64,000 bases of DNA from assembly GCF_034274695.1 (NCBI RefSeq), contig NZ_CP128362.1, positions 8,434,501 through 8,498,500 of the forward strand. Direction: 5' to 3'. The stretch's first letter is position 1. The number at the start of each line of letters is the position of its first letter. Of this stretch, positions 237 to 20,470 are shown piece after piece. The notes under the pieces were generated by a model, which saw only the letters and a program-made list of their open reading frames with translations, did not search any database and had not been told where the DNA came from. The translations under genes and the position numbers were made by a program. The DNA is from Chitinophaga sp. LS1. GTDB taxonomy: Bacteria; Bacteroidota; Bacteroidia; Chitinophagales; Chitinophagaceae.

Positions 237-310
237 GGATCAGTAGTTCAGTTGGTTAGAATGCCGCCCTGTCACGGCGGAGGTCGCGGGTTCGAGTCCC
301 GTCTGGTCCG
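237..310 (+). tRNA. tRNA-Asp (GTC anticodon)
   Basis: The 74-base sequence folds as a standard cloverleaf. The acceptor strands GGATCAG and CTGGTCC pair over seven positions with one G-T pair. The anticodon stem-loop reads CCGCC-CTGTCAC-GGCGG with anticodon GTC. The T arm is GCGGG-TTCGAGT-CCCGT, and the discriminator base is G. CCA is not encoded. A terminator follows at once. The 3' end abuts a decayed recombinase gene on the opposite strand, so this tRNA was probably an integration site. Confidence 0.96.
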
Positions 311-316
311 CTAAGA

Positions 317-352
317 GGGACTGATTATCGAAAAGATGATCGGTCCCTTTTT
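317..352 (+). terminator. Rho-independent terminator of tRNA-Asp
   Basis: GGGACTGAT at 317-325 pairs with ATCGGTCCC at 339-347 (one G-T pair) and is followed by a run of T. Confidence 0.75.
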
Positions 353-1004
353 CGTTTTTACTCGTATTACCCACCTGTTGGGCAATACGGATAAAAATAT
401 AGTTAACTTTGGGAGTTCGAAATGTCTCATTTTGTCGGTCATAGATAATTCCGTCGGGGAATATGAGAGTTTGAAGCTTTTCCTTTGCACCTGTGTTACT
501 GGAACGCCATACCATAGCGAGATTGGAAGAAAGAGATATGGCTTGGTTGATTACTTCTTCCGGGTTCGAAATACTTCCGGTGCATTTTTCCAGGTTGGTG
601 GAAATAAGATTCCGCTACTTACTATACCGGGAATAAAACTTATCGAACGTCTCCTGCCCTATTTCTTTTAATACATACCTACTTTCCTCCAAGCCGTCGA
701 TCTTGTTATCAACCTCCTTTAATTGAGCGGTTAATATTTTCTGTTGTTCTATGTTTTCCCTGTTCATTTCATAATACTCCTCTAGAAGTACCTTTCTAAG
801 GAATTCTATCTGATTATCATCAAAACAGAATTGACTTAATAACTGCTCAAATAGTTCATGCATCCTTTTGGCGCTTTTATTGCACTTACAGCCATCTTTT
901 CGGCATTTATAATACCACAGTGATTTTGCTTTGACTACATAACCTGTAAATGGCTGGTTGCAGGTATCACATTTAATGAGACACTGTACACTGTCCGTTA
1001 CCGA
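320..1004 (-). pseudogene. Serine site-specific recombinase, C-terminal remnant with internal stop
   Basis: Read on the minus strand from 1004, one frame gives a zinc beta-ribbon (C-x2-C ... C-x4-C-x-C, around KCDTCNQPFTGY), then a coiled segment (residues rich in E, Q, K), and then, after an in-frame TAG at 615-617, the usual recombinase tail (KLQTLIFPDGIIYDRQ and FRTPKVNYIF). These features belong to the large serine recombinases of Bacteroidota mobile elements. The catalytic N-terminal domain and the recombinase domain are absent, and a stop lies just upstream of 1004. The tail runs toward the 3' end of tRNA-Asp, as in elements integrated at tRNA genes. It is a relic that cannot catalyse recombination. 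Confidence 0.8.
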
Positions 1005-1034
1005 CTACAACATAACCTCGTAAAAATATTTACC

Positions 1035-1502
1035 CTATGATAAAGTGAATATGCTCTTAAATAGCATGTCAAATAATGACTGTTTCTGAATTGCTATTTC
1101 TAAAGTCCCTATCATCCCCACTTTTACATCAACTAAATTGTGTCGTTTTCTAAATAAGATAAGAGGAACATTAAATTCAGTAAAGGTAACACCTGCCACA
1201 TCTCCATTAATAGTCTGTTTTGATTCCATATTTAAACTGAGCCTTGCAGGCTGTCCAGCTTTTATATTTTTTGATATGGCAGTATTCAATGATAATATCA
1301 TAAATGAAGTGTCAGATGGAAATGGTAAAATAGTAATAGGTATATTGGCAGTCTCATGCACTTTAAGGGTGTTTAGTAAAATAAACAATCCAAAAATAAG
1401 TCCTCCAATGCCCAAACCGCCCCAGACCAATAATCCTTTAGGAGGATTATGGATAATTTCCTGTGCTTCTTCAGATCTTACTTTATATTTATTGGGTTCC
1501 AT
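1035..1502 (-). CDS. Very short HlyD-like secretion accessory protein
   Basis: 155 residues. An N-terminal cytoplasmic stretch (KYKVRSEEAQEII) is followed by one hydrophobic segment at about residues 24-45, as in HlyD-type membrane fusion proteins of Bacteroidota peptide exporters. The C-terminal part (AGQPARLSLN ... VDVKVGMIGTLEIAI ... LFDMLF) resembles the end of HlyD, where a beta barrel closes with a Gly-Met-x-Gly turn. The lipoyl and coiled-coil parts that occupy the middle of normal HlyD proteins (about 400 residues) are missing. It begins 2 bases after the exporter gene ends, so it is the last gene of the RiPP operon. It may be a minimal adaptor or an internal-deletion product; the sequence alone cannot decide. 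Confidence 0.6.
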   Translation of the reverse strand: MEPNKYKVRSEEAQEIIHNPPKGLLVWGGLGIGGLIFGLFILLNTLKVHETANIPITILPFPSDTSFMILSLNTAISKNIKAGQPARLSLNMESKQTINGDVAGVTFTEFNVPLILFRKRHNLVDVKVGMIGTLEIAIQKQSLFDMLFKSIFTLS

Positions 1503-1504
1503 AT

Positions 1505-3715
1505 TTAACTACCTAATTCAAGTTGGTTTTTTACCAGTTCAAAATACTTATACTTGTTCTTCACAAGCCGATCATGATTCCCTGTTTCTACAATATGACC
1601 ATTTTCCAATACAATGATCTGATCTGCATTTCTTACCGTACTCAAGCGATGAGCAATGATTACCACAGTTTTACCTTTTAGAAATTCATTCAAATTTTCC
1701 ATGATCACTCGTTCATTGTTAGTATCAAGATTGCTGGTAGCTTCATCAAAGAAAATGTAATGAGGGTTTTTATATACAGCTCGTGCAATCAGGATTCGTT
1801 GCTTTTGCCCTCCGCTAATCCCGAGACCAGAGGCTCCTATCTTCGTAGTATAGGCTAGTGGCAGCCCCTCAATAAACGGCATTAGATTGGCAGTTACCAC
1901 TGCTTTTTCCATTAATTGATCATCGATCTCTTCACCATTCATTGCTATATTTCCAGCTATAGTATCATAAAAGATATATCCTTCCTGCATCACGGTACCA
2001 CACTGTCCTCGCCAGAGACCAGGCGATAATGTATGAAGAGGGCTTTCTCCAATCATAATTTCGCCCTTCACTGGTTTATAAAATCCTAAAAGCAATTTTA
2101 ACAGTGTTGTTTTTCCACTGCCACTCGTACCTACAATAGCTGTTATTCTCCCTTTTGGAATGACCATTGAAATATCTTTAAGTACAAATGGAGAATTAGG
2201 ACCTTCATATTGAAAGGACAGATGGTCAATAATGATATCCCTGTGAAGATCACGCTCTCGTTGGAATTGATCAGAATGGCTTTCCTCATCTTCTTTATTA
2301 AAAATCTCCTGCAATCTATCTATACTGAGTCGTGCATCCTGTGAGGCTTTAATAAAGCTAACCAATTGTTCTATAGGTCCGTTAATCTGTCCGGTGATAT
2401 ATGAAATACTAAGCAGCACCCCCAGACTGATATCTCCTTTTATGACATAGCTGGCAGCAAGGAAGGATACAACAATATTTTTAATTGTATTGATGAAGAT
2501 AAAGCCCGATTGTTGATACTGTTCTAGTGCGAGAGCCTTTATACCCAGGTTAAAATTTTTCACCTGCAACTGCTCCCACTCATTACGTTTATTGGCTTCG
2601 CTTCCAAACAATTTTATTTCCTGCATGCCAATAATTGTTTCATAAAGCTTATCCTGATTTTCTCTACTGGTAGCAAACCGCTTATAGTCCAACTGTTCTC
2701 TTTTTTTCTGAAAAAGAAATATCCACCCTACACTAATTACACTTAGGATCGCAAAGATGGAAAAGATCAGGCAACTGAAATAAGCAAGAATAGCGGTAAA
2801 GAGGAGCATATTTATCAAAGAAAATATGGACGTTAATACCGTTCCTGTTAAGAAGTTTTCTATTCTATGATGGTCGTTTATCCTTTGAGATAGATCTCCA
2901 ACAGCCTTCGTTTCAAAAAACTTTAACGGCAGCCTAAGTAACTTTGATAGGAAATCGGATATGATATGCAGGCTGATCCTCGCGTTAATATGTAATAATA
3001 ACCAACTTCGGATAAAGTCAATGACAGTACTCCCAATAAACAAAAATAATTGAGAGAGCAATACAAGGTAAACTAATGAGATGTTCTTTCTGCTTACTCC
3101 TTCATCAATCAATAACCGGGTTAGGAAAGGAAAAGAAAGAGAAATAAGACTAGCCCCCAGCATTGCTCCTATTAACAATACAATATGCTTCTTAAAAGGA
3201 GATAAATAATTTAGTAAAAAACCATATCCCAATCTTTTTTCTCTGACTTCACGGGCCAATCTAAATTCAGAGGATGGTTCTAATAAAAGAATGGTTCCTT
3301 TATTGTCAAATGTTGATATCCAGGATCTATGTATTTTTTCTTCATCGAGCGCTACTATTCCAAATGCAGGATCAGCGACGATAAAATAAATTTTCTTTGT
3401 TAATAAAGCCTTTTTAATACCATACAAAACAACAAAATGGTTTTGATCCCAATGCAGTATGGCCGGAAATGGACAATCGTTTACAAGCAGATCCATATCT
3501 ACATATGCCATCTGCGTACGAAATCCGATACTTTCAGCAGCCTCACTGATACTTAAAAGACTAACTCCTTCTCTACTAATAAAACATCTCTCACGCAAAT
3601 AGTCAAGGGGGTACAACTTCCCATAAAAACGCGCGATCATTTTTAAACAGGTAGGCCCACAATCTATTGAGTCATGCTGGCGGTAAAAGAATCTTTTTCT
3701 CCCCATGTTAAACAT
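1505..3715 (-). CDS. Peptidase-containing ABC transporter (C39 peptidase, leader-cleaving exporter)
   Basis: 736 residues in the classic order of a PCAT exporter. A C39 cysteine peptidase domain comes first (C19 in DCGPTC, H93 in QNHFVV, D115 in VADPAFG form the expected triad). An ABC transmembrane domain follows (about residues 165-450). The last part is an ATPase with Walker A GTSGSGKTT, signature ISGGQKQR and Walker B YIFFDEATSNLD. Such proteins cut double-glycine leaders on the inner side of the membrane and export the core peptide. The neighbours are several precursors with GG leaders and a radical SAM enzyme, so these are its probable substrates. It starts 9 bases after the maturase stop, which suggests one transcript. 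Length is normal and no key residue is missing. Confidence 0.93.
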   Translation of the reverse strand: MFNMGRKRFFYRQHDSIDCGPTCLKMIARFYGKLYPLDYLRERCFISREGVSLLSISEAAESIGFRTQMAYVDMDLLVNDCPFPAILHWDQNHFVVLYGIKKALLTKKIYFIVADPAFGIVALDEEKIHRSWISTFDNKGTILLLEPSSEFRLAREVREKRLGYGFLLNYLSPFKKHIVLLIGAMLGASLISLSFPFLTRLLIDEGVSRKNISLVYLVLLSQLFLFIGSTVIDFIRSWLLLHINARISLHIISDFLSKLLRLPLKFFETKAVGDLSQRINDHHRIENFLTGTVLTSIFSLINMLLFTAILAYFSCLIFSIFAILSVISVGWIFLFQKKREQLDYKRFATSRENQDKLYETIIGMQEIKLFGSEANKRNEWEQLQVKNFNLGIKALALEQYQQSGFIFINTIKNIVVSFLAASYVIKGDISLGVLLSISYITGQINGPIEQLVSFIKASQDARLSIDRLQEIFNKEDEESHSDQFQRERDLHRDIIIDHLSFQYEGPNSPFVLKDISMVIPKGRITAIVGTSGSGKTTLLKLLLGFYKPVKGEIMIGESPLHTLSPGLWRGQCGTVMQEGYIFYDTIAGNIAMNGEEIDDQLMEKAVVTANLMPFIEGLPLAYTTKIGASGLGISGGQKQRILIARAVYKNPHYIFFDEATSNLDTNNERVIMENLNEFLKGKTVVIIAHRLSTVRNADQIIVLENGHIVETGNHDRLVKNKYKYFELVKNQLELGS

Positions 3716-3724
3716 AGTGTTATT

Positions 3725-5020
3725 TTATGCGTAAACTATTGCTTCCAGGAACCTTTCAATGACCATCTGTTTCTTTTTATCTTCATCAAAATCATATACA
3801 CAATAATCAATCCCCTCATGCTCAATTGCTTGTTGTGAACACCCTCCATTACATATAGGCATGATCTTACATTCAAGACATGGCTTATTCTTAAATTTAC
3901 TACTCATGCGTTTTTCATATTTGGGGTTCCAGAGGATCTTACCATCATCAGATAAAATACCTTCACTATTATTAGTTGTAAAATCCCTTGCAGTGCATTT
4001 AAATACCTCCCCATTATAATTGATAGTAGCATGGTTTCTATGATCACCATAGCAGGATCCCAAAACGGTATCATGTGACGCAGTATCTACCTTAAATCCT
4101 TTTTCCCGATAATACCAGCGGGCATCTCTTAAATCCTGGTCGTCTATGTTTTCCAGCTCCTGCCAAACTTTATGTATATCAAAGGAAAGATAACTTCTGT
4201 CGGTTTCATTTAATTCTTCAAAGTCCGTTAAAATATCATTTAAGCCAGGCAGCGTTTCTGGTGAGCAGTTAATCCTTACCAGTACTGTCAATTGATTTTT
4301 CAATAAGAGTTTGATGTTTGATACTATTGCATCATAAGATCCCTTGCCTTCAGATATAAACCTAACTTTATCATGTCTTTCCCGATGTCCGTCAAGCGTG
4401 ATCTGAAAAAAGGAAAGATTGTTACTTTTAGCCTGATCGGCTATCTCCTGGTTGATAAGTAAAGCATTAGTAGTCATGGATGAAGTGAACATAACACCTT
4501 TATCTGTGCACAGTGTTTTGACCTTTTCCAAAAGCGGGGCTACTACTTTTTTAAAATATAGCAAAGGTTCACCTCCAAACCATGAAATGGATAGTTCTTT
4601 AAGGTTAGGCATTTGTTCTAGTATGGCCGACACAAACCGAAGTGTATTAAGCTTTGTATCTTCATCCATCTTTGAATCTTTGATATGGGTTTCATAACAA
4701 TACCAACACTTAAAATTACAGTTCATGGTAGGATTAATATGGAGCTCAAACAGGGTATCATTATTATCAACCTGGTTAACTATATTTTTCACCTGTTCTA
4801 TCTCATCCAAATCGTCATTGACAATAAACCCCTTTTCAATTAGAAAGTTATAGAATGTTGGATGTACTTCGTCTAGCTCCGTGAAATCAGCTTTTTTGAC
4901 AGAAGCCTCATACATCGCTACTAACATTGGATCAAGTATTATATATTCTCTGGTGAATGAATTGAATCCAATGGTCTGTTGATCATACTCAAAAAAAAAA
5001 TTATAACGACTAACTTTCAT
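3725..5020 (-). CDS. Radical SAM/SPASM peptide maturase
   Basis: 431 residues. The N-terminal ~90 residues look like a peptide-recognition region. C101, C105 and C108 in CNFKCWYC form the CxxxCxxC site for the S-adenosylmethionine-binding 4Fe-4S cluster, and WFGGEPLL is the GGE motif. The C-terminal part carries SPASM cysteines (C in GSCYGD, C in VFKC, then CLECKIMPICNGGC and a late C in DYCVYDF) for two further clusters. Such enzymes make thioether or other crosslinks in ribosomally made peptides. It lies between the Cys-rich precursors and the C39 exporter on the same strand, so those precursors are the likely substrates. The exact chemistry is not readable from sequence. Confidence 0.9.
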   Translation of the reverse strand: MKVSRYNFFFEYDQQTIGFNSFTREYIILDPMLVAMYEASVKKADFTELDEVHPTFYNFLIEKGFIVNDDLDEIEQVKNIVNQVDNNDTLFELHINPTMNCNFKCWYCYETHIKDSKMDEDTKLNTLRFVSAILEQMPNLKELSISWFGGEPLLYFKKVVAPLLEKVKTLCTDKGVMFTSSMTTNALLINQEIADQAKSNNLSFFQITLDGHRERHDKVRFISEGKGSYDAIVSNIKLLLKNQLTVLVRINCSPETLPGLNDILTDFEELNETDRSYLSFDIHKVWQELENIDDQDLRDARWYYREKGFKVDTASHDTVLGSCYGDHRNHATINYNGEVFKCTARDFTTNNSEGILSDDGKILWNPKYEKRMSSKFKNKPCLECKIMPICNGGCSQQAIEHEGIDYCVYDFDEDKKKQMVIERFLEAIVYA

Positions 5021-5156
5021 AATTTCATCATTAATGGCATAAAGAGATATCTGTCCGCATTGTGAGTGCAGATAGAAAATTTTATTTTTTATGGAATATA
5101 TTAATACAGGAGGCTGGTAGTAGTTTGGGTTTTACGAACTATGCTAAACGATCAGA

Positions 5157-5381
5157 TTAGCAGCTCTTAGAGTTGTTACAACCTTGTTTGTTCGTGGTAT
5201 CTGTACAATCAGTGCCGTTTGTGCAAGTATAGTTAGTACCTGTGCAAGTACCCGTATTATTGCAGGTATTGGACGCTTCAAATGTGCTGAACCCACCTCT
5301 GATAGAACCGAATCCACCGGTGATAGTACCCTCTGAATTGGTATTGATGCTTTTGATAAATGATGAAATGCTCTTTTTCAT
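5157..5381 (-). CDS. Cys-rich RiPP precursor 1 (double-glycine leader)
   Basis: 74 residues. The leader MKKSISSFIKSINTNSEG is followed by two GG pairs (ITGGFGSIRGG); cleavage after the second, by the C39 exporter nearby, would release a core of about 44 residues. The core has six cysteines in three pairs, CNNTGTC, CTNGTDC and CNNSKSC, each fitting C-x-N-x-x-x-C, separated by Thr/Asn-rich linkers. It is the precursor nearest the maturase gene. Its role as a substrate of that enzyme is inferred from position, leader type and Cys spacing. Confidence 0.85.
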   Translation of the reverse strand: MKKSISSFIKSINTNSEGTITGGFGSIRGGFSTFEASNTCNNTGTCTGTNYTCTNGTDCTDTTNKQGCNNSKSC

Positions 5382-5407
5382 TTTTAGTAGTTTAATTAAT
5401 TAAATAA

Positions 5408-5650
5408 TCATGAACAGGTAACTTTGTTTGTGCAAACAGATACTCCACTACCCACATTTGTAGAGGAACAAGTGTTGGAATTAGTACATGCACTATTTAC
5501 GCCCTCAGTGCAGGAAGTTGAGTTGGTACATGATACATTACTTGATGCAGCCAGGCTTGCACCACCTTTGATAGCCCCAAAACCACCAGAGATCCTTCCA
5601 TCAGTAGCGGCGTTTAATTGAGACATTAGGGATTTGATGCTTTTCTTCAT
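5408..5650 (-). CDS. Cys-rich RiPP precursor 2 (double-glycine leader)
   Basis: 80 residues. The leader is close to that of precursor 4 (KSLMSQLNAATDGRISGG, then FGAIKGG). The core after the second GG has three pairs, CTNSTSC, CTNSNTC and CTNKVTC, all C-x-N-x-x-x-C, and ends in a single Ser. Only 26 bases separate its stop from precursor 1. The strong match of leader and core pattern among these neighbours shows tandem duplication of one gene. Confidence 0.85.
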   Translation of the reverse strand: MKKSIKSLMSQLNAATDGRISGGFGAIKGGASLAASSNVSCTNSTSCTEGVNSACTNSNTCSSTNVGSGVSVCTNKVTCS

Positions 5651-5665
5651 ATTTTTTTCAATTAA

Positions 5666-5906
5666 CTAACAATCACCTAAATTTGTACAAGTTTGAAAAT
5701 TGCTTGTGTCTTCACATCCCAAATAATTTGTGCAATCGGAATTAGTATTTGAACAGAATGTTGCTTCGTTTGAACAACTATAATTAGTGTTTATATAGGC
5801 AGCATTTACACTAAATGCCACCTCTAATAGTTCCGAATCCACCCGAAATTTTACCGTCTTCGCTGGTATTAATGTGTTTAATAAATAAAGAAATACTCTT
5901 TTTCAT
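5666..5906 (-). pseudogene. RiPP precursor 3, frameshifted right after the double-glycine
   Basis: From ATG 5906 the frame gives a normal leader (MKKSISLFIKHINTSEDG, then ISGGFGTIRGG) but meets TAG two codons after the GG. Moving one base forward at about 5814-5818 restores a full core that starts FSVNAAYINTNYSC, contains CTNYLGC and CTNLGDC (both C-x-N-x3-C) and CSNEATFC (one residue longer), and stops at 5666. A single extra A within GGTGGCATTTAG explains the break. It could be a true pseudogene, a slippage site, or a sequencing error; as written only the leader is made. Confidence 0.75.
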
Positions 5907-5935
5907 TTTTAATGGTTTTTAAGTGAATAAAATAA

Positions 5936-6175
5936 TCAGGAACAAGTACCCTTATTAGCACAAACGTAAGTCCCATTACCTGTATTTGTAGCAGAACAGG
6001 TACCTGTATTAACACATACAGAATTTGATCCTTCAGTACAAGAAGTTGAATTTGTACATGACGAATTACTTGATGCAATCAGGCTTGCACCGCCTTTAAT
6101 AGCCCCAAAACCACCTGTGAGCTTTCCATCACCAGAGGCGTTTAGTTGGGTCATTAGGGATTGGATACTTTTCAT
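5936..6175 (-). CDS. Cys-rich RiPP precursor 4 (double-glycine leader)
   Basis: 79 residues. The leader MKSIQSLMTQLNASGDGK is followed by LTGGFGAIKGG. The core is nearly the same as in precursor 2 at its start (ASLIASSNSSCTNSTSC) and has the three pairs CTNSTSC, CVNTGTC and CANKGTC, again all C-x-N-x-x-x-C. The two cores differ mainly in the linkers. It lies upstream of the frameshifted precursor on the same strand. Confidence 0.85.
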   Translation of the reverse strand: MKSIQSLMTQLNASGDGKLTGGFGAIKGGASLIASSNSSCTNSTSCTEGSNSVCVNTGTCSATNTGNGTYVCANKGTCS

Positions 6176-6186
6176 CTTACATTTTT

Positions 6187-6430
6187 TTAAATTGATTTAC
6201 AATTAAAATCACCGGCATAGCCACACTCTGTAGCATTTGGCGAGACGTTAAAAGTACTATATTTAGACAATAATAGTTGATGACCTCTCCACATATACTG
6301 TTAGTACAAGAAACATTGGATACGGTCTATCTGCTATTACGTTAAACTCGTCTCTTATAGCTATGAGTTTAACAGCATGCCTCAATGGGTGGATGCATTA
6401 ATTGCTGTCTTAAACATTTGATTTTTTCAT
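6187..6430 (-). pseudogene. Decayed fifth RiPP precursor
   Basis: Between precursor 4 and the outer-membrane barrel gene, the minus strand starts ATG-AAA-AAA-TCA at 6430 like the other precursors but stops after six codons, and no leader GG can be read. Further along, a frame gives NVSCTNSIC, close to the NVSCTNSTSC of precursor 2, then a frame change to a tail with SPNATECGYAGDFNC before TAA at 6187. Several indels and stops separate these parts, so the gene is dead. Its identity rests on the short matches and on its place in the tandem series. Confidence 0.55.
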
Positions 6431-6462
6431 TTCTATTATTTTTTTTGTTAAAAAATCACCCC

Positions 6463-8856
6463 TCAACTACCAGCTCTTCCTGTATTGGTTTCTGAAGAAT
6501 GTGCATTACCTGTCTTTAATTTTTTATTCCCGAAATTATATCTCATGGTTAGACCTACCTTCCTGGCATCATTATAACCACTGTTGGTAATCAAGATCCC
6601 ATTTGCTATATAGCTGGAAGAAAACTTCCTTGTCCTGAAAATATCATTTACGTTCAATCCTATTTGTAGTTTGCCATTCGGGAATCTATAACGTCCTGTA
6701 ATATTGAAGTAGTAATATCCCGCATTCTGCTCTATATCGCTTACATCTTTAGATTGATAATTAAACTCTACACCTCCTGCCAGGGTTTTATCTTTATTAA
6801 AATAGAAGGTATTGTTACTCCTGAAAATCGCCCCCCAACCATCAGTAACAGCAGCCGTTGAAGAAAGAGAAGATCTTGCACTGTTATAATAAACATATAC
6901 CTCGTTCACACTTTCTAACCACTTAATATTTGCCTGATAATAGGAGACCCCTGCCTGAACAAATTGAGAAGAAAGGAAGTTAGCATACTTTGTAGCCGTG
7001 ATTTTGGTATCTTCATCCGGGATACCTATAACACCGATCTTGTCATCGCTAAAGCTATACGAAAGAGAAAAATTCAGATTATTACAGGTTTCTGAAATAG
7101 AAAAATTATTAGTGATAGAAGGGGTTAGATAAGGATCTCCCTCTAGATATTGGTACTGACTCAGATAACGGCGAAAAGGATTCAGAAATGTAAAGGATGG
7201 TCTATTGATCCTTCTTCCATAATCAATGGTCAGCTGATTTTTATCATTGAGCTTGTATTGCAGGTAAACTGTTGGAAACAGATTGAAATAATTGTTATGA
7301 TTGATCGTGTCTGAACCATTATATGAATGTCCTTTCGTTTGGGTATATTCTCCTCTCAATCCTGACTGAAAGGTCAGCCGCTTTCCAATAGTAGTGCTAT
7401 AGTTAAGGAACAGTGCCTGCGTATTTTCATTCAATTTAAAAACATTCCTGCTGTAAAAATCATCGATCCCTATTTGATGCGTATTCAAATCCACATCATT
7501 ATCATTCTTAATAAAATTAACTTTAGCACCAAATGACAGATCATGTTTTTTAGCTGGCAACTTTACAATTGCATTAAGTGAATAAAATTTAGAAGATTGA
7601 AAATTATTGGACGTTAGCTGAGAATATCTATCTGTTAATTCATGTCTTTCTCCATCATACAAATTATTGTCTATACTCCTTGGTAAGGCAGAATGATCTA
7701 TCGTCCAGTCAGCATCAACGGTTAATTGTTTTTTATGAAGAGAGTCCAGGAATTTTTCATAATGTACATTCGCGCTGGCTGTCTTATAGGTGATATTATT
7801 TTTTATATATTGATCCGATATAGAGTCAATCCCCTTATTTTTATTTAAGAAAGTAGTATAATTATTACCTGTCTGATAAGGATAAGAATAGAGGATATTA
7901 ATAGAAGCACCTACCAGGCTATTTTTACCCAGATCAGCATCAAAACCAAACTGTCCACTCGCAAATTGAGAAAGCTCTTTCACATCATTCTTTGTAACCT
8001 GAGTTTGATCGCTATAATAAATGGAACCGGAATAAGAATCTAACCTGCTGCCTTTGGCGACGCCAGCAATTGCAAAATATCTTATATTCTTTTTGTTATA
8101 GTTCAGAGAAATATTGCTTCGGGCTAATTGTTCCCGGGTCTTCTGCGCATAAAGGGTCAATGTTCCATTGTATCCCAATTCTTTTTTTCTTTTTAGAATG
8201 ATATTAATGATCCCACTACTACCCTGTGCATTGTACATCGCTGGCGGAGTAGTCATAATTTCTATGCTTTCTACTGATTCAGCAGGAAGGGATTTCAAAT
8301 AATTAGCCAGCGCATCCGCTGAAAATTGCAATGGACGATTATTAATCATGATTGAGACTTCCTCCTTTCCGATTATACGAATCGCATTCCCATCCACTTT
8401 AACCTGAGGAGTTTTTGATAATAACTCCATAACATCGGCGCCATTAGTATTAATATTATTACTTACATTAAATATTAATCTGTCGATTTTCCTTTCTATA
8501 ATTGGTTTCTTTCCTTTTATATCTACCGAATTAAGTAGTTGGGTGTTTCTTTTCATTGCAATATTAATAGTGGTATCACCATCTACCCAAAGTGATAATT
8601 CCTTACCTCCATAATTCAAAAAGGAGAATTTCAACCGATAACTATTTCGTTCATTAATATTTAACTTATAATATCCAGTACTGTCGCTGAATGCTATCTG
8701 CTGTTCCCCTTTTCCAGCCTCTAATGTTATGGTAACCAGCTCTAAAGCAGAATTGGTAAGACTATCTGAGATCTTTCCCTGAAGAATATATTGTGCATAT
8801 AACCTAGCATTGAAAAATAATATTACGAGCGTAAAAAAAACAATCAGGCGCTTCAT
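6463..8856 (-). CDS. Outer-membrane beta-barrel protein with carboxypeptidase-like and TonB plug domains
   Basis: 797 residues. A signal peptide (to about residue 21, ending RLYAQ) is followed by a carboxypeptidase-regulatory-like fold (about 24-105, ILQGKISDSLTNSALELVTI), a TonB plug-like part (about 115-220, IERKIDRLIFNV and IMINNRPL), and a long barrel that ends in an aromatic strand before a short tail. This is the family usually listed as outer membrane beta-barrel protein or TonB-dependent receptor of Bacteroidota. It is the first gene of the RiPP run on this strand and may release, take up or protect against the peptide; that role is inferred from position only. Confidence 0.85.
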   Translation of the reverse strand: MKRLIVFFTLVILFFNARLYAQYILQGKISDSLTNSALELVTITLEAGKGEQQIAFSDSTGYYKLNINERNSYRLKFSFLNYGGKELSLWVDGDTTINIAMKRNTQLLNSVDIKGKKPIIERKIDRLIFNVSNNINTNGADVMELLSKTPQVKVDGNAIRIIGKEEVSIMINNRPLQFSADALANYLKSLPAESVESIEIMTTPPAMYNAQGSSGIINIILKRKKELGYNGTLTLYAQKTREQLARSNISLNYNKKNIRYFAIAGVAKGSRLDSYSGSIYYSDQTQVTKNDVKELSQFASGQFGFDADLGKNSLVGASINILYSYPYQTGNNYTTFLNKNKGIDSISDQYIKNNITYKTASANVHYEKFLDSLHKKQLTVDADWTIDHSALPRSIDNNLYDGERHELTDRYSQLTSNNFQSSKFYSLNAIVKLPAKKHDLSFGAKVNFIKNDNDVDLNTHQIGIDDFYSRNVFKLNENTQALFLNYSTTIGKRLTFQSGLRGEYTQTKGHSYNGSDTINHNNYFNLFPTVYLQYKLNDKNQLTIDYGRRINRPSFTFLNPFRRYLSQYQYLEGDPYLTPSITNNFSISETCNNLNFSLSYSFSDDKIGVIGIPDEDTKITATKYANFLSSQFVQAGVSYYQANIKWLESVNEVYVYYNSARSSLSSTAAVTDGWGAIFRSNNTFYFNKDKTLAGGVEFNYQSKDVSDIEQNAGYYYFNITGRYRFPNGKLQIGLNVNDIFRTRKFSSSYIANGILITNSGYNDARKVGLTMRYNFGNKKLKTGNAHSSETNTGRAGS

Positions 8857-9861
8857 GGTTAATTATAAATGCTTTATTTCGAAATCTTAATATTAATATG
8901 GACAGATTTTGGCAATAAGATCCTCCTTCGCAACATTGTAGCGAATATGCAATTAGTACTCCCAATTGAGTAACAGGTATTTTAGTAGAAATAAATATAA
9001 CTTGCCATTAGCACAAAGCCGATGTGAACACTTATGACATGACTGGTTGATTAAATGATCATGCCGGGTATAACACGATAAATTTTAATAATTATGATTT
9101 AAATTAAGCTATAGGTAAATGGTTGGGTAAATAATAATCAGATTCGCGCTTCTCACATTGTATAGTATATCCCGAGTAGTTTAACAACAAGACAAGTATA
9201 GGTAAAAAAAATTAAAGAAGGAAATTTAATTAATAAAAACATTGTTGTACAGAAAATACTGAAATAAAAACTTTAAAAAAATTTAACATCTAGTGATTGG
9301 TCATTGACTATAATTACAGAAATACTTATATCAAATTGGTTTACAATACTTAATAAATAAATTACTATTTTTCAACAGGTTTCCTTCCGCTCGGCAAGCT
9401 TAAATGCCTTCAATTCGAAAGATTTAAACGCTTTGTTGATATAAAAAAAACAGGGCAAGGAGTTACTAGAGACAAATCACTTTTTCTTAAGTGCTCTTCT
9501 AAAAGCACATTCCAAATTCCTTCCTTCGATAAAAGCTATAAATACTTAATCAAAAAACGAATAAAGGAGTTATAAGGGGAATAACTCAGCAATGAATATT
9601 GCATCCTATCCCTCCAATAATATCGATGAAACATTGTAATAAAATTTATAACGGCACTAGGTGGTAATTCTGATGCAACTGGGAACACTTATGTTTCCAT
9701 ATCAAACCAGGTATCACCCCAGGATATAAATGATATATGATCGTTAACTGGCTTTCAATAGATTTTTAATTTCATTTTACCAATAAAGTTGTGAATCTCA
9801 GATAAATCTTCCATAAACTGGTTCGAAACTTGTCCCCTCCACCCCGCAAGTTAAATTGAAA

Positions 9862-10172: not shown

Positions 10173-10835
10173 TTATCTTGTCTTGGTCAAGACGTGGATA
10201 ATTGTGCTTACGTGTTCTTTGACATTGTCTCTGCCTATTTGCATGAGTGTGTAATATTGGGATTTATGACATTTCCTCATTTTTTCTCTACTTCCACAAA
10301 AACACTGAGAGGTTCTGCCAAGATCTCCATTCTTTAGGAACTTTATAAGTAAGCCTAACACCTTTTCAGAATTGAGATTCATAAATAACTCTGTGTAATA
10401 TTGAAGAATACCTGCTAGTCCGTGTTCATATTCTCCATTAACATAGTAGCCTTCAACCATACGATGCGTTTGATTGAAAAAATATGGTATTACGGCTTCT
10501 TCATAGAAATCGAGTAACATAATCCCATTTTTGCATCGAATAATTTCTTCTGGTACAATTCCAATACAGCATGCTAAAGTGTCCTCATACATATGCCAGT
10601 CTGCAATTTTAGGTATTTTATTACTTACTTCATAAACAGAAGGAAAGCGGTTGGGATAACTGTTCGTACAGTGAATCTCTATTTCAAAGGTTTGCCAGTA
10701 TTTTCCATTCTGATCTACAATGTCTAACATGCCTTTAACTATGGGAAGTCCATCTAAAGACGATTTACTCAGTTGTGGATATTTGAGAATCAAACTATTT
10801 GATTGACTCTCAAATATCTCTCTGCTTTTATTCAT
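10173..10835 (-). CDS. E2 ubiquitin-conjugating-like protein with C-terminal SEC-C zinc motif
   Basis: 220 residues. The N-terminal ~150 residues fit the prokaryotic E2 fold: an FEIEIHCTNSYPNRFPSVYE strand pattern, then IPKIADWHMYEDTLACCIG, where a conserved His and the Cys pair near residues 88-89 stand where E2 enzymes have their active Cys. The C-terminus ends with a SEC-C motif, CFCGSREKMRKCH. Its start overlaps the stop of the CD-NTase fragment by four bases (ATGA), so the two were one operon. In short type II CBASS systems an E2-like protein modifies the C-terminus of the cyclic nucleotide synthase; this gene would have had that role. The gene is intact but its partner is truncated. Confidence 0.7.
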   Translation of the reverse strand: MNKSREIFESQSNSLILKYPQLSKSSLDGLPIVKGMLDIVDQNGKYWQTFEIEIHCTNSYPNRFPSVYEVSNKIPKIADWHMYEDTLACCIGIVPEEIIRCKNGIMLLDFYEEAVIPYFFNQTHRMVEGYYVNGEYEHGLAGILQYYTELFMNLNSEKVLGLLIKFLKNGDLGRTSQCFCGSREKMRKCHKSQYYTLMQIGRDNVKEHVSTIIHVLTKTR

Positions 10836-11368
10836 ATTTTCAAGCCCCCTGGACGATTAGTTGATGCACCTGTAAAAAGACCAACAGTAGCAGTGTTATT
10901 GCCTGTTTCATTTTTTGCTAAGTGGCATGGAAATCTATCGCCAAAATTTTTTTGCCAATGAGCACACGCATTAACTCCATTGCTCTCCTTTAGGGCCTCT
11001 TTTGCATTGGAGATAAAATCTGATAAACATTTCATAAAATAATCCTTGTTGGTATAGCTAGATAAAAGGTTTTCACCCTGTTCCGGAGTCGGTCTACCAC
11101 AACTGAAGTTTTTGGATAGAGTATATTCCATATTTACCATTGTTTCTTTCAAAGCAATATCATCTCGATCATGAGAATAGAAATTATTTACAACCAAAAT
11201 AGTCAACACCAAACCACTTGGCATTTTTTTGTCAACCCGCGCAAATTCTCGATAATCACACCACGCCTTTGTATATCTAACTAATCGTCTTATTTGTGGA
11301 TTAGCGTCAGCTATTTCATTGAACCAATTTACGGTAGCAATAATAATCCTCCTATCAGATGTTGACAT
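10832..11368 (-). pseudogene. CD-NTase (CBASS nucleotide cyclase), 5'-truncated: C-terminal half only
   Basis: 178 codons that match the C-terminal helical half of CBASS nucleotidyltransferases: NPQIRRLVRYTKAWCDYREF, then KKMPSGLVLTILVVNNF, RDDIALKETM, FSCGRPTPEQGE, YFMKCLSDFI and WQKNFGDRFPCHLAK. The N-terminal half, with the GS motif and the Asp triad that bind metal and NTP, is absent. The ATG falls in the loop of a terminator hairpin (11347-11377), so the 5' part has been replaced by unrelated DNA. A complete enzyme would be near 380 residues. As it stands it cannot make a cyclic nucleotide. The E2-like gene follows with a 4-base overlap. Confidence 0.75.
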
Positions 11369-14218: not shown

Positions 14219-17200
14219 ATGTTTCCCTTTCCGAAAGAGTTCCTGAAGAAAATTCAGGTAATGTTGCTATGCCTATTGCCTATGCTACCGCGGGCGCAAA
14301 CGATCAATACATCGTTGCCTGTTGGTTCGCCTAAGGGGGCTAGCGGGGTAAGTAGTGCTGGTGGCAGTACTTACTCGATTCCTATCAAAGTGCTGTCGGG
14401 TACGAACAGCATGACACCTACTGTTAATTTAATGTACAATTCCCAATCCGGAGATGGTGTAGCTGGTTGGGGATGGAATCTATCCTGTATGTCTGTGATC
14501 AGCAGAGCAGGAAAGTCGAATTTTTACAATGGCATTAATACGCCGGTAAAGTATACCAATACAAATGATGCCTTTGTATTGGACGGACAACGTATGTTCG
14601 CTACGTCAGGTACGAATGGAGCGAACGGAGCAGTATATGGTCTGGAGAATGAGCAGTTCACCAAAATAGAGTCATTCGGTGGCAGCGAAACACTGGGCCC
14701 TGCTTATTTTAAGGTCACTACCAAAGATGGTACAGTTTTGGAATATGGCAATGCTACCAATGCAAAAATGACCACTGATGATGGTACTGGTAGTACAATG
14801 ATGTGGTTTTTGAACAAGGTGACGGACATCAGTGGTAATTATCAGGTATATGTGTATACAATTAATACTACGGATCGTACCTATGTATTATCAGAGATAC
14901 AATATACAGGTAATGCTACGGCTGGTATTACAACTTATAACAAGATTATCTTTACTTACACTACCCGCACCGGTTGGCAGAATAGCACTGTCTATGATGG
15001 GGGAGCTTCTTTACGCAGGGCATACAATCTGAGTAATATCAGTATAAAGAATGCTTCAGCACAAACCGTGCGTTCTTATGATCTGGCATACACCCTGATT
15101 AAAAATCAATATTTCCTGCAGTCCTTTACAGAAAAGGGCTCCAATGGATCAGCCTTTAATCCGCTGGTGTTTAGTTATGGTGCTAATACTACAGCTCCCG
15201 ATGTAACTACGTCCGTCCAGTATTCCGGAATGAATCAGGGGAATGTGTATGCAGGAGACTTTGATGGGGATAGTCAGCAGGATGTACTGGAATCCTCTTA
15301 TTACCTGGATAACAACAGTGTTCCCCATTATACATCTTACGATGTAATGAGCCATTTTTCTACCTATGCGGGGCAGCCAGCTATCTCCTATTTTTACCAG
15401 TTTAAAATTCCCGAGTCAGGTGTTACTGAACTGAAAGGAACTAGTAATGGCTACTACAATTTCCAAACCTTTGATTATGATGGAGATGGAAAGGATGATG
15501 TCGTAATGTTAAATACGATTATAAGTGGAAGTGACAGGATTTACAATGGCATCCGTATTAATTATTCCAGGAAATTCAATGTCTACTCGGGAGCATATTA
15601 TGACTCTGTCAATTATACGGCACTACCTCATTCCAGTTTTTATACACAGGATTTTAAATATGTATACCGTAACGGTACTACATATGGTAACTACTTCGTG
15701 GCTGGTGATTTTGATGGGGATGGTGCGCAGGATTATATCCTTATTCTCGGAATCAATTATAGTAATGCTTTTAAAGGATTTTTCTCCAGTCCGAAGAAAG
15801 GCATTTACAACCAGGAGATTGCACTATTTGGTGTGGAAGGGACTTCAAGTGATCCTTTTTATGCGAATTCTATAGCAAGTGCAAAGCAGTTGCTGCCCAT
15901 AGATTTTGATGGGGATGGCAAGCGGGAGATCCTTGTGGTAAAAGACAATCAGAGTTATGTATTATCTGTATATCCTGTATCAGCATCGTCTGGGTATAGT
16001 TATGCAGCGCAGGTACTTTATACCTTTTCAGATATAAAAGGCAATTATCCAACATTGCCCGGTGACTTTAACGGAGATGGGAAAACGGACCTGCTGTATA
16101 GAAATACGCCCAGTACTTCTACTGGCAGCTGGTTTCAGCTGACAAGTACAGGAAAGGCGTATACTTCGCAGGCATTTGGATTTTATAATCGTCCTTACCT
16201 GGCAGGTGATGAAGCTGGTACTGCCCATCATCTGGTAGTAGCTGATTTCAATGGAGATGGAAAATCAGATGTATGGCATTCGCTCGATCTTACTACTTCC
16301 TCTTCCCGGCATACGATTTATTATAGTAATGGGCTCACTTTTAACATTGAGCACTACAATCAGGCTGTGAGTACCAATGGAGGCAAAAAGTCCAATACAG
16401 TAGTAGGTGATTTTAACGGAGATGGAAAACCTGATATCCTGTCTATCAACAGTAGCAATTCAGGACGTTTCATCTATCCCAAGCCCATGAAGGAAGAACG
16501 CTTTCTTACAAAGATAACAGATGGTCTTGGGGCACAGGAAGGGTTTAATTATGTAATGCCAATTCAAAGCGGTTATTATAGCCGTTCGGCTGAATATGAA
16601 TATGATAAGAAAGGAGTAGCGATTGGAGCAGGTGCCAATGGCAATCCTTACAATGTGTTGTTCTCCCCATTGTACCTTGTAAAGGAGACTTATAAGTCTA
16701 ATGGTGTGGGCACTGGATTACGTTATACTTCATATGAATATACGGATGCCTGTTATTCTCCCATCAGGGGCTTCCTGGGTTTTAAAAAGGTGAAAGCGTC
16801 GGATGAAAGTTCTGGAATTGTAACCACTACTGAAAATGATATTCATCCCGATTACCTGATCCCTTACCGGACAAGACAAACGATGGTATATGGAGCAGAG
16901 ACACTGAGTGATACGAAATTTACAACCAACCTGCTGAAGCCTTCCAGTAATTACCTGGATAAACGGGTGGTTGTACAGGTGCCGAAAACACTTACCATCA
17001 ACGGTATTACAGGAGAAGCGGCTGAAACTACCAGTACTTTTGATAATTATGGAAATACGACCCAATCTGTTACCAAAGTAGGTAGTGTAAGTGGAGATGT
17101 AGTTACTCCTATTGAGACCAGCACGATCACGTCGGTATACGGTACGCATGGAACACCATTCCCTGCCTCTCCGGAATCCATCACTACTAAGAATGTGAGA

Positions 17201-20200
17201 AATGGACAGGCAGAAGTGAGCAAGGTGACTACCTATGCTTATAATACTGCCAATCTGGTTTCATCAATAGTAGAGTTTTCCGGGAAGGCCAAGGCATATA
17301 CTACCAATTTTACCTATGATGCATTTGGGAATGTGAAGCAGAGAGATCTGGTAGCGACAGGATTGCCTACCCGCTCTGAGAAGTCAACTTATGATAATAC
17401 CGGGCGTTTCCTGTTACAATCTGAAACAGTAGGGGCGGATGTTACTAAAAAGCAGGTATTCACTTATGAAACTTCATTTGGGTTACCGGCTACAGTGAAA
17501 TCTGCTGATGGGCTGACCACTGGTTACCAGTATGATGTATTTGGCAGATTAAACCTGACCACCCTGCCGGAAGGATATAGTATCACGCAAACTATGGCAT
17601 GGGAAAGTACCTCTGGCCGGTATTCAGTGAGTGCTACCAGACCTGGTGGTGGTAATAATCAAAAGATTTTCTATGATCTGTTGGGCAGGGAAGTGAGAAT
17701 GGAAATGTCTGGTTATAATGGAGGAACACTTGTATCTTCAAAAAGCTATAATGCAAAAGGTGAACTGGTTTCTTTAACTGCTCCATATTATAGCACTGAG
17801 ACGCCTCTTACTACCACTTATCAATACGATAATTACGGTCGTACCAGCCAGGTGTCCAATGGTACAGTCACCACTAATTATTCTTATAGCAAGCTGGCAG
17901 GAGGTCAATATAAGACTACCGTTACCAGTAGCTCCGGACAGTCCAGTAGCCAGACAGAGGATGCCAGTGGTATGATTATCGCTGCTACAGACAATGCCGG
18001 TTCGGTTGGATTTGTTTATGATAGCCGTGGCAATAAGACAGAGACGTCTGTGAACGGTGTAGTGATGACTGCCAATAGTTATGATGAGTATGGTAATGAG
18101 ACCGGTGTGACTGATAAGCATGCGGGTACTTATAGTTATCAGTACGACGCTTTCCGGCAACTGGTAGCTGAAACAAATCCCCAGGGGCAAACAAGAACCC
18201 TAACCTATGATCCATTTGGCAGGGTAACCCAACACGCCGGCCCGGAGGGAACAACTACCTATGAATACTGGAAAGAAGCCAGCACCGGATATTGTAACGA
18301 TAACCTGACCAAAGTAACAGGCTTTGACGGAGATGTGACGGAGTATACTTATGATAACCTCAGACGTTCTCTATCAGAAAAAATTACAACAGATGGTAAT
18401 GCATTTAATACACAATATGGTTATGATGCTTATAATAACCTGACAAAGATTACCTATCCATCCGGAGTTACTGTAAGTCGTACCTATGACAGAAATGGAA
18501 CCGTCACAGGGGTACAAATGGGTGAAGGTACTGGTGCTACTACCCTATTCACGGCTTCTGGTATGAACAGCCTTGGATATTATACAGGTTATTCTTATGG
18601 TAATGGTAAATCTACGACTGAAAGCTATAATCTGGCATTGGGGGCAATGACTCAAACCTCAACCCCGGGGGTGTTCCAGATGAACTATTCCTTTGACCCC
18701 CTGACCGGCAACCTGAATAGCAGGAAAGACATGATTAGGAATCTGGATGAGGTGTTTACTTATGATAATACTAACCGTCTCCTGACATCAAAAATTAATA
18801 ATGTTCAACAGTTGAATATTACCTATGATGGTGCAGGCAGCAGTTTTGGGAATATCAAGACAAAGACGGATGCTGGTAATTATACTTATAATGATCAGAA
18901 GGTCAATGCGCTGGCTTTTATAACAAATCCTGCGGGTAGCCAGGTACCACCATCGGTGATATCACAGCTGCAACAGGATGTGACTTATACCGCTTTCAAC
19001 CGTACATCGACAATAACCGAAGGGTCCAATCAGCTGACATATGCTTATGGTGCAGACTACGGGCGAATAAAGGGTACCTTTAAACAAAACGGGGCCTTAG
19101 CTGAGACGAGATATTACCTGGGAGGGTATGAAAGGCAGATTAAAGGCAGTGTAACCAGGGATATTCATTATATAGAAGCTAGTAATGGTATTGGTGCTAT
19201 CCTTACCAAGGAAGGAAGTGCTGTCACAGTATATTACGTTTACCATGATTATCTGGGTAGCATCCTGACCGTAACAGATGCATCCGGTAATGTGATAGCT
19301 TCCCAGAACTTTGATGCATGGGGGCGTTACAGGAATCCTTCGGACTGGAGTTATAATAATGTTCCCAATCAACCGGAATGGTTGTATAGGGGCTTTACCG
19401 GTCACGAGCACCTGAAGGACTTTTCCCTGATCAATATGAATGGGCGAATGTATGATCCTGTATTGGGTCGTATGATGAGCCTTGATAACTTTGTATCTGT
19501 ACCCGGAAGTAGTCAGGGATATAACAGATATGCCTATGGATTAAATAATCCACTGGTTGTTCGGGATCCTAACGGAGAGTGGATTCATATTGTGGTAGGT
19601 GCTGCAATAGGAGGTGTCCTGAATCTGACTGTAAAAGCGGTACAGGGAAAGATCCATAATGTGGGAGATGGATTTGCTGCATTTGGCATTGGAGCAGCAG
19701 CGGGGGCTGTTGGGGCGGCTACAGGAGGTGCGGCGCTGTCCATGTTTGGATTGCAGGCAACTACGGTTGCAGGAGGTGCCGTGGCGGGTTTTGCAGGTGC
19801 AGTAACATCGAGTCCGGTACAGGGAATAGGGAATGCTGTTTATTTTGGCGACAAGTATACCTTGAAGGATTTTGGAATGGACGTGGTGATAGGTACTGTA
19901 GTAGGAGGTGCTTCAGGGTATATTGCTGGCCGGTTAAAAGCAAGTACTGCCGGTGCAAAAACGGATCTGAACAAAGGACGGACGGGTGCAGGGGGTGCTG
20001 GCAATGGTGGAGGAGTAACAGGCAAGGTGAAAGCGAGTGTATCATTCGGTCAATTAACCGGAGAAATGCCGGAGGCTATAAAGCCCAATGGAGGACCATT
20101 ACGTACACCAGTTGTTTTAAATTTAGCAAAAAAGACGAAAGACATTTCGTTGGGAATAGGTGAATTATTAGCCGATTTTTCAGCAAGCGTGAAGGCTTCT

Positions 20201-20470
20201 CCCTGGTGGGAATGGGGTGCAGATGAATTCGAGTTTGCTTTTCAGAATATGATCCGGGATCCGGAAGTAAAGATTCATTTCAACCTGACGATGAAGGATG
20301 GAAAAATGATGAATGTATGGGAAGCGCTTAAGGAAGGTGCAAATGGTTATTCCGGTAGCCGTGTTACTTCCTGGGAGCTGTTTGAAATAAAGCACACAGG
20401 GGATGCTTTGTCAAGGACTATATTCTATTACCAGGGAAGGGTTATCGCCAACCCATTTTTAGGACTATAA
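14219..20470 (+). CDS. Giant secreted SpvB/FG-GAP/RHS-repeat polymorphic toxin
   Basis: 2083 residues. A signal peptide (ends PRAQT, about residue 27) is followed by an SpvB-like domain (GDGVAGWGWNLSCMSVISR, about 75-100). Seven calcium-binding FG-GAP-like repeats come next (for example GDFDGDGAQDYIL, GDFNGDGKTDLLY, about 340-740), then a TcdB-like middle (about 755-900). Many YD/RHS repeats follow (for example YDNYGRTSQV, about 1000-1650). The RHS core ends YGLNNPLVVRDPNGEW near residue 1785. The last ~300 residues are variable: a Gly/Ala-rich stretch that looks membrane-active, a Gly linker, and a terminal domain ending FYYQGRVIANPF. Proteins of this build form a shell around a toxic tip. 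The tip here was not recognised. A putative immunity gene follows after 12 bases. Confidence 0.9.
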   Translation: MFPFPKEFLKKIQVMLLCLLPMLPRAQTINTSLPVGSPKGASGVSSAGGSTYSIPIKVLSGTNSMTPTVNLMYNSQSGDGVAGWGWNLSCMSVISRAGKSNFYNGINTPVKYTNTNDAFVLDGQRMFATSGTNGANGAVYGLENEQFTKIESFGGSETLGPAYFKVTTKDGTVLEYGNATNAKMTTDDGTGSTMMWFLNKVTDISGNYQVYVYTINTTDRTYVLSEIQYTGNATAGITTYNKIIFTYTTRTGWQNSTVYDGGASLRRAYNLSNISIKNASAQTVRSYDLAYTLIKNQYFLQSFTEKGSNGSAFNPLVFSYGANTTAPDVTTSVQYSGMNQGNVYAGDFDGDSQQDVLESSYYLDNNSVPHYTSYDVMSHFSTYAGQPAISYFYQFKIPESGVTELKGTSNGYYNFQTFDYDGDGKDDVVMLNTIISGSDRIYNGIRINYSRKFNVYSGAYYDSVNYTALPHSSFYTQDFKYVYRNGTTYGNYFVAGDFDGDGAQDYILILGINYSNAFKGFFSSPKKGIYNQEIALFGVEGTSSDPFYANSIASAKQLLPIDFDGDGKREILVVKDNQSYVLSVYPVSASSGYSYAAQVLYTFSDIKGNYPTLPGDFNGDGKTDLLYRNTPSTSTGSWFQLTSTGKAYTSQAFGFYNRPYLAGDEAGTAHHLVVADFNGDGKSDVWHSLDLTTSSSRHTIYYSNGLTFNIEHYNQAVSTNGGKKSNTVVGDFNGDGKPDILSINSSNSGRFIYPKPMKEERFLTKITDGLGAQEGFNYVMPIQSGYYSRSAEYEYDKKGVAIGAGANGNPYNVLFSPLYLVKETYKSNGVGTGLRYTSYEYTDACYSPIRGFLGFKKVKASDESSGIVTTTENDIHPDYLIPYRTRQTMVYGAETLSDTKFTTNLLKPSSNYLDKRVVVQVPKTLTINGITGEAAETTSTFDNYGNTTQSVTKVGSVSGDVVTPIETSTITSVYGTHGTPFPASPESITTKNVRNGQAEVSKVTTYAYNTANLVSSIVEFSGKAKAYTTNFTYDAFGNVKQRDLVATGLPTRSEKSTYDNTGRFLLQSETVGADVTKKQVFTYETSFGLPATVKSADGLTTGYQYDVFGRLNLTTLPEGYSITQTMAWESTSGRYSVSATRPGGGNNQKIFYDLLGREVRMEMSGYNGGTLVSSKSYNAKGELVSLTAPYYSTETPLTTTYQYDNYGRTSQVSNGTVTTNYSYSKLAGGQYKTTVTSSSGQSSSQTEDASGMIIAATDNAGSVGFVYDSRGNKTETSVNGVVMTANSYDEYGNETGVTDKHAGTYSYQYDAFRQLVAETNPQGQTRTLTYDPFGRVTQHAGPEGTTTYEYWKEASTGYCNDNLTKVTGFDGDVTEYTYDNLRRSLSEKITTDGNAFNTQYGYDAYNNLTKITYPSGVTVSRTYDRNGTVTGVQMGEGTGATTLFTASGMNSLGYYTGYSYGNGKSTTESYNLALGAMTQTSTPGVFQMNYSFDPLTGNLNSRKDMIRNLDEVFTYDNTNRLLTSKINNVQQLNITYDGAGSSFGNIKTKTDAGNYTYNDQKVNALAFITNPAGSQVPPSVISQLQQDVTYTAFNRTSTITEGSNQLTYAYGADYGRIKGTFKQNGALAETRYYLGGYERQIKGSVTRDIHYIEASNGIGAILTKEGSAVTVYYVYHDYLGSILTVTDASGNVIASQNFDAWGRYRNPSDWSYNNVPNQPEWLYRGFTGHEHLKDFSLINMNGRMYDPVLGRMMSLDNFVSVPGSSQGYNRYAYGLNNPLVVRDPNGEWIHIVVGAAIGGVLNLTVKAVQGKIHNVGDGFAAFGIGAAAGAVGAATGGAALSMFGLQATTVAGGAVAGFAGAVTSSPVQGIGNAVYFGDKYTLKDFGMDVVIGTVVGGASGYIAGRLKASTAGAKTDLNKGRTGAGGAGNGGGVTGKVKASVSFGQLTGEMPEAIKPNGGPLRTPVVLNLAKKTKDISLGIGELLADFSASVKASPWWEWGADEFEFAFQNMIRDPEVKIHFNLTMKDGKMMNVWEALKEGANGYSGSRVTSWELFEIKHTGDALSRTIFYYQGRVIANPFLGL

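Follow-up and report, generated by a model that had tools for sequence, protein, structure and literature searches.

We analyzed a stretch of 64,000 nucleotides (the window) from the 8.67 Mb genome of Chitinophaga sp. LS1 (contig NZ_CP128362.1, positions 8,434,501 to 8,498,500), which contains a cluster for ribosomally synthesized and post-translationally modified peptides (RiPPs), encoded entirely on the minus strand between positions 1035 and 8856. By sequence, the cluster falls among the RiPP loci with radical SAM/SPASM maturation: short precursors composed of a leader and a core adjoin a radical SAM/SPASM enzyme and an exporter. In the precursors of this cluster and, with few exceptions, those of related loci, each Cys is preceded by an Asn of its own. 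This pattern suggests that the radical enzyme ties each Asn/Cys pair into a small ring, and the locus probably makes ranthipeptide-like RiPPs bearing Asn-to-Cys thioether rings, one per unit.

Asn and Cys in the precursor cores

The three intact precursors, located on the minus strand at 5157..5381 (74 residues), 5408..5650 (80 residues) and 5936..6175 (79 residues), were recognized from the list of open reading frames (ORFs) and the reading of their cores, and each carries six Cys, every one with an upstream Asn. An earlier note on the window had placed the precursors at these positions and described their 18 Cys as nine pairs of the form C-x-N-x-x-x-C, both of which we confirmed (9/9 pairs). 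The linkers, regarded there as variable, proved to carry conserved Asn as well: an Asn lies between each Cys and the preceding Cys or the start of the core in 18 of 18 cases, and the closest upstream Asn is separated from its Cys by three residues in nine cases and by two in five. Given a conserved Asn in the linkers and another ahead of the first Cys, we read the unit of the pattern as N-x-C, x being most often three residues, and C-x-N-x3-C as two such units back to back. The leaders contain GGF...KGG or RGG, and no characterized family to which the precursors might belong was found, none of them matching any Pfam or NCBIfam family.

Species genomes were scanned with a maturase alignment, which yielded 131 relatives; the counts of loci given hereafter refer to the best 80 of the 131. 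Small ORFs that combine a GG-type leader with one or more Cys and lie no more than 2.5 kb upstream of the maturase were collected as precursors (143 ORFs in 75 of the 80 loci; Cys-free peptides were excluded by design). Three chance ORFs (L035 6723, L067 5816 and L089 5695) were dropped, and L017 and L019 contributed six precursors that the leader pattern had missed; of the resulting 146, 122 non-redundant cores from 66 loci were left once cores 80% or more alike had been removed. The precursors of L032, L052, L086, L095-L097, L099 and L100 stand outside these counts, and no precursor was found for L060 or L098. A search with a single precursor as the query gave no match, and a profile of 20 precursors retrieved 38 database proteins, six already known and 32 further; as the profile includes the core, the 32 are not a blind sample.

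All counts were compared with shuffles in which Cys were held fixed and the relatedness among sequences remains. In the clade closest to the window, a group picked after inspection of the data, Asn was found in 82 of 82 intervals between neighboring Cys (mean 58.8 and maximum 68 in 500 shuffles). The first Cys had an Asn within seven residues upstream in 20 of the 20 cores, a figure that the shuffles also reach (mean 15.5), and the last Cys had one within seven residues downstream in none of the 20. The 32 profile-found precursors possessed Asn in 143 of 145 intervals (shuffled mean 102.0, maximum 115), upstream of the first Cys in 30 of 32 (shuffled maximum 30; both misses stem from trimming at GG) and in three of 32 tails. 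Across these 52 cores, Asn was present in 99.1% of the 227 intervals against 88.1% for the more abundant Thr, and N-x3-C was the commonest spacing (159 of 279 Cys). Among the 122 cores, 115 had Asn upstream of the first Cys (shuffled maximum 104) and 21 had Asn downstream of the last.

In a wider test, each Cys was assigned an upstream Asn of its own within nine residues. This succeeded for 436 of the 464 Cys in the 122 cores, whereas the shuffled means sum to 350.6, and the excess was seen in the closest clade (102/102; shuffled maximum 91), in a group of cores with an NNC-GGNC motif (113/113; maximum 99), in the remaining cores (221/249; maximum 195) and in the profile-found set (174/177; maximum 150). 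Because membership in the NNC-GGNC group depends on a motif containing Asn, the bias-free figure is that of all the cores outside the closest clade, 334 of 362 Cys. Both exceptions in L024 have Asp at the place expected for Asn, and several other exceptions lack Asp. The mirror test, in which a downstream Asn was assigned instead, exceeded shuffling in the closest clade (82/102; mean 69.0, maximum 78) and the profile-found set (146/177; mean 121.6), the two sets in which the units alternate, but neither in the NNC-GGNC group (66; mean 77.5) nor in the rest (150; mean 143.9). Because the mirror test exceeds shuffling only where units alternate, the direction is most simply read as Asn first and Cys after. 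The earlier note had assigned the Asn of the C-x-N pairs to the modified site; conservation across genera and co-occurrence with one maturase family speak for that assignment, but the unit turned out to be reversed, Asn pairing with the Cys that follows it, in the linkers as well as within the pairs.

The 24 cores having no more than two Cys all show N-x2-C or N-x3-C at their first Cys. Single-Cys cores with N-x2-3-C occur at five loci (L035, L039, L044, L049 and L054), implying that pairing of one Cys with another is not required there. In the NNC-GGNC group, the interval test gave 55 of 82 against a shuffled mean of 50.1, which is not above chance. Thus, if the rule of one Asn per Cys holds in this group, its rings must interleave, which we offer as a prediction.

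The maturase and its relatives

The maturase (431 residues; 3725..5020, minus strand) was assigned from Pfam and NCBIfam, invariant columns, an AlphaFold2 (AF2) model and structural matches. It matches the radical SAM family PF04055 with 64.1 bits, and its SPASM region scores 16.1 bits on PF13186, under the cut-off of 21.5. Across 57 sequences, the CxxxCxxC motif at positions 101/105/108 is invariant, as are seven more Cys (323, 342, 381, 384, 390, 394 and 407). The AF2 model has a mean predicted local distance difference test (pLDDT) score of 89.5, and the first ~90 residues, a small strand-helix domain in this prediction, may be a RiPP recognition element. Among solved structures, 5wgg, which we take to be CteB, was the best sequence match, and its fold matched that of the maturase over nearly the full length. 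The acceptor described for the SCIFF/CteB system is Thr, whereas here it would be Asn.

The maturase scored under every NCBIfam cut-off shown. Membership in the PapB family (NF047865; 124.1 bits, cut-off 340), in SCIFF (TIGR03974; 73.9 bits, cut-off 425) and in TIGR04463 was rejected, the last being the top-scoring model albeit with 181.2 bits, far under its curated cut-off of 525. The maturases of TIGR04463 have Cys-rich partners. Another SPASM enzyme encoded by LS1 reached 223.6 bits on TIGR04463, likewise below the cut-off.

In the tree of maturases (81 of 85 sequences; L021, L029, L065 and L098 were omitted by length), the enzyme of the window, represented by L013, fell within a group of eight with support of 100/99, all of which have precursors of the C-x-N type. 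The groups adjoining the eight possess single-unit or NNC-GGNC cores. When the core types were placed on the tree (by hand for L032, L052, L086, L095-L097 and L099), the label changes numbered eight for C-x-N, four for single-unit and six for NNC-GGNC, indicating types that are clustered but do not form one clade each. Co-occurrence of the maturase with such precursors, the absence of which the earlier note had named as evidence against its reading, was seen.

The hosts of the 80 loci are Bacteroidota groups except for two: L019 is labelled Beijerinckiaceae, perhaps mis-binned, and L043 is an unplaced bacterium. A search with the maturase found 3,684 proteins at E <= 0.001 (120 listed), not all of which belong to its family. 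Among sampled genomes, that of LS1 included, matches occurred in 9 of 195 from the family at E <= 1e-50; at E <= 1e-80, 9 of 396 genomes sampled from the order and 2 of 395 from the phylum had one. A scan of viral contigs gave two weak matches. The genome of LS1 possesses a second locus (L100; G000 C1 6,654,092-6,655,345), with a SPASM enzyme and a short GG precursor whose core is ARRLEDSCTKNCTKKSEEIE, the first Cys of which has no upstream Asn; a fragment of a barrel-type protein and a C39-like protein were also read from the sequence there.

Proposed product and competing explanations

In the pathway we propose, the small strand-helix domain at the N-terminus of the maturase would probably bind the leader (GGF...KGG). 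The enzyme would remove a hydrogen from Asn, with the beta carbon as the most likely position, and the sulfur of the Cys lying shortly downstream, most often after three intervening residues, would attach at this carbon. Each such reaction would close one thioether ring with a change of -2 Da, and a peptide could undergo as many as six, one for every unit. The C39 exporter is predicted to cleave the leader after GG and to export the core, acting together with a short membrane-fusion-like protein, and the outer-membrane barrel encoded in the cluster may pass or recover the product. The sequence pattern fits the ranthipeptide class, in which Cys is joined by a thioether to a non-alpha carbon.

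The thioether of streptococcal NxxC joins Cys23 to Asn20 at the beta carbon (PMC8326336 and PMC13361665). As with NxxcA and NxxcB, a radical SAM enzyme here accompanies a peptide in which Asn stands a few residues before Cys, a likeness of motif and described chemistry. The streptococcal group is Rgg-linked and described with one N-x2-C unit, whereas the present peptides hold as many as six, with N-x3-C the commonest form, and occur with a C39 exporter and an outer-membrane barrel in Bacteroidota. As Asn already serves as a thioether acceptor in NxxC, the type of crosslink is probably not new by this analogy. Freyrasin (PapA/PapB) resembles the present peptides in having six thioether units per peptide, x3 spacing and an acceptor with a side-chain carbonyl, but Cys comes first there and the acceptor is Asp (C-x3-D), in contrast to the Asn-first order here. 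PapB accepts zero to six residues between the partners (PMC9413430), so that the variable spacing found here is no obstacle.

An attachment of the sactipeptide type, with Cys joined to the alpha carbon of the same upstream Asn, would leave the pairing unchanged. The sequence pattern cannot separate the alpha from the beta carbon, and Asn is among the acceptors of sactipeptide alpha-thioethers listed by a review. We regard this alternative as rather unlikely, as the characterized NxxcA, also with Asn upstream of Cys, carries a beta-thioether, as does freyrasin with its chemically similar Asp acceptors. It is also conceivable, albeit quite unlikely, that the Cys form disulfides, the Asn serving in folding or turns while the maturase makes another change such as epimerization. 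The even number of Cys in the window peptides (six each) and the frequent G, N, S and T between Cys agree with disulfides; however, relatives with one Cys or three (e.g. L055) still have Asn and are accompanied by a maturase of the same family.

A C-x-N unit, in which each Asn at +2 would be bonded to the preceding Cys or work together with it, is very unlikely. In the closest clade, 49 of 96 Cys that could be scored are followed by such an Asn and the downstream count lies above shuffling, but the 20 cores of this clade have Asn upstream of the first Cys and none shortly downstream of the last, downstream counts elsewhere (102 cores) stay close to the shuffled level or under it, and N-x2-3-C is kept in single-Cys relatives. 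A metallophore, with metal bound by Asn and Cys, the barrel as an uptake receptor and the enzyme making another change, is most improbable: 62 of the 80 loci have a barrel relative upstream and in the same orientation, and the barrel has a weak plug-domain match, but one-Cys cores are expected to bind weakly, Asn is a poor metal ligand, and no metal-transport family was named in the seven proteins scanned.

Returning to Asn-to-Cys thioether rings, we regard the peptides as a real ranthipeptide-like family, and the tandem array and the family itself may be new: no description of it was found in the open-licence PMC literature among the matches listed, and the passages of PMC10352776 and PMC9062424 consulted do not describe it. 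That a single Bacteroidota maturase lineage, equipped with a dedicated barrel, follows one upstream Asn per Cys to build single rings or tandem arrays of up to six, interleaved in the NNC-GGNC group, across a large undescribed product family is quite possible, though we advance it tentatively. If true, a simple sequence rule would predict ring positions across a large peptide family, and its single-ring members would be ideal minimal substrates. Asn-acceptor thioethers would then extend from a one-ring streptococcal peptide to tandem, perhaps interleaved, arrays, and a radical-enzyme peptide pathway would be linked to a conserved outer-membrane barrel with a role in exit or uptake.

Gene neighborhood and genomic setting

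The GG leaders and the radical SAM/SPASM and C39 neighbors on one strand, as the earlier note had them, were borne out by Pfam and the ORF positions. The cluster further includes two decayed precursors, a gene for an outer-membrane barrel and a short gene of membrane-fusion-like type. For the exporter (736 residues; 1505..3715, minus strand; PF03412, PF00664 and PF00005), a relative encoded downstream and in the same orientation was present in 71 of the 80 loci. The probable partner of the exporter, the membrane-fusion-like protein from the ORF list (155 residues; 1035..1502, minus strand), matched no Pfam or NCBIfam family. A tblastn relative of this protein was found in three of the 80 loci, and ORFs of 160-178 residues follow the exporter in six of 12 other loci inspected (L015-L019 and L062). 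Immediately after the exporter partner, L015 (12082-13842) and L016 (11983-13731) possess a glycosyltransferase-like gene (PF02709), and an ORF of L018 (12079-13839) was judged alike by its similar start; no such gene is at the equivalent place in the window. Thus, sugars may decorate the products of these relatives.

The first gene of the module (6463..8856, minus strand) encodes the outer-membrane beta-barrel protein (PF14905, 260.1 bits), with a signal-peptide-like start, a carboxypeptidase-regulatory-like domain (PF13715) and the weak plug-domain match (PF07715). The barrel match ends 74-534 bases ahead of the first precursor in 51 of the 60 barrel loci having a counted precursor. L014, in the closest group, has none of the barrel, exporter and fusion-like partners within its 17 kb. 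The seven cluster proteins contained no regulator family in the Pfam/NCBIfam scan, which covered the wider neighborhood in part.

Both decayed precursors are on the minus strand. In one (5666..5906), the GG leader and a six-Cys core occupy different frames, and the other (~6190..6330), detected by three-frame translation, retains SNVSCTN and SPNATECGYAGDFNC in two different frames. The broken state of the former is identical in L013 ([Flexibacter] sp. ATCC 35208), with which bases 289-9824 of the window share 99.86% identity. The identity (L013 1864-11405) begins within the end of a tRNA-Asp gene that flanks the cluster (237-311) and ends at 9824, with the outer flanks unmatched on both sides, which suggests that the cluster is a recently moved island.

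Beyond the cluster, a CBASS-like remnant (10173-11368) comprises an E2-like protein beside an oligonucleotide cyclase reduced to its C-terminal part. A partial ORF at 12661-13380 matches a DDE-type transposase domain (PF13546), and a protein of 2,083 residues encoded at 14219-20470 has an SpvB-like N-terminal domain together with FG-GAP and RHS repeats.
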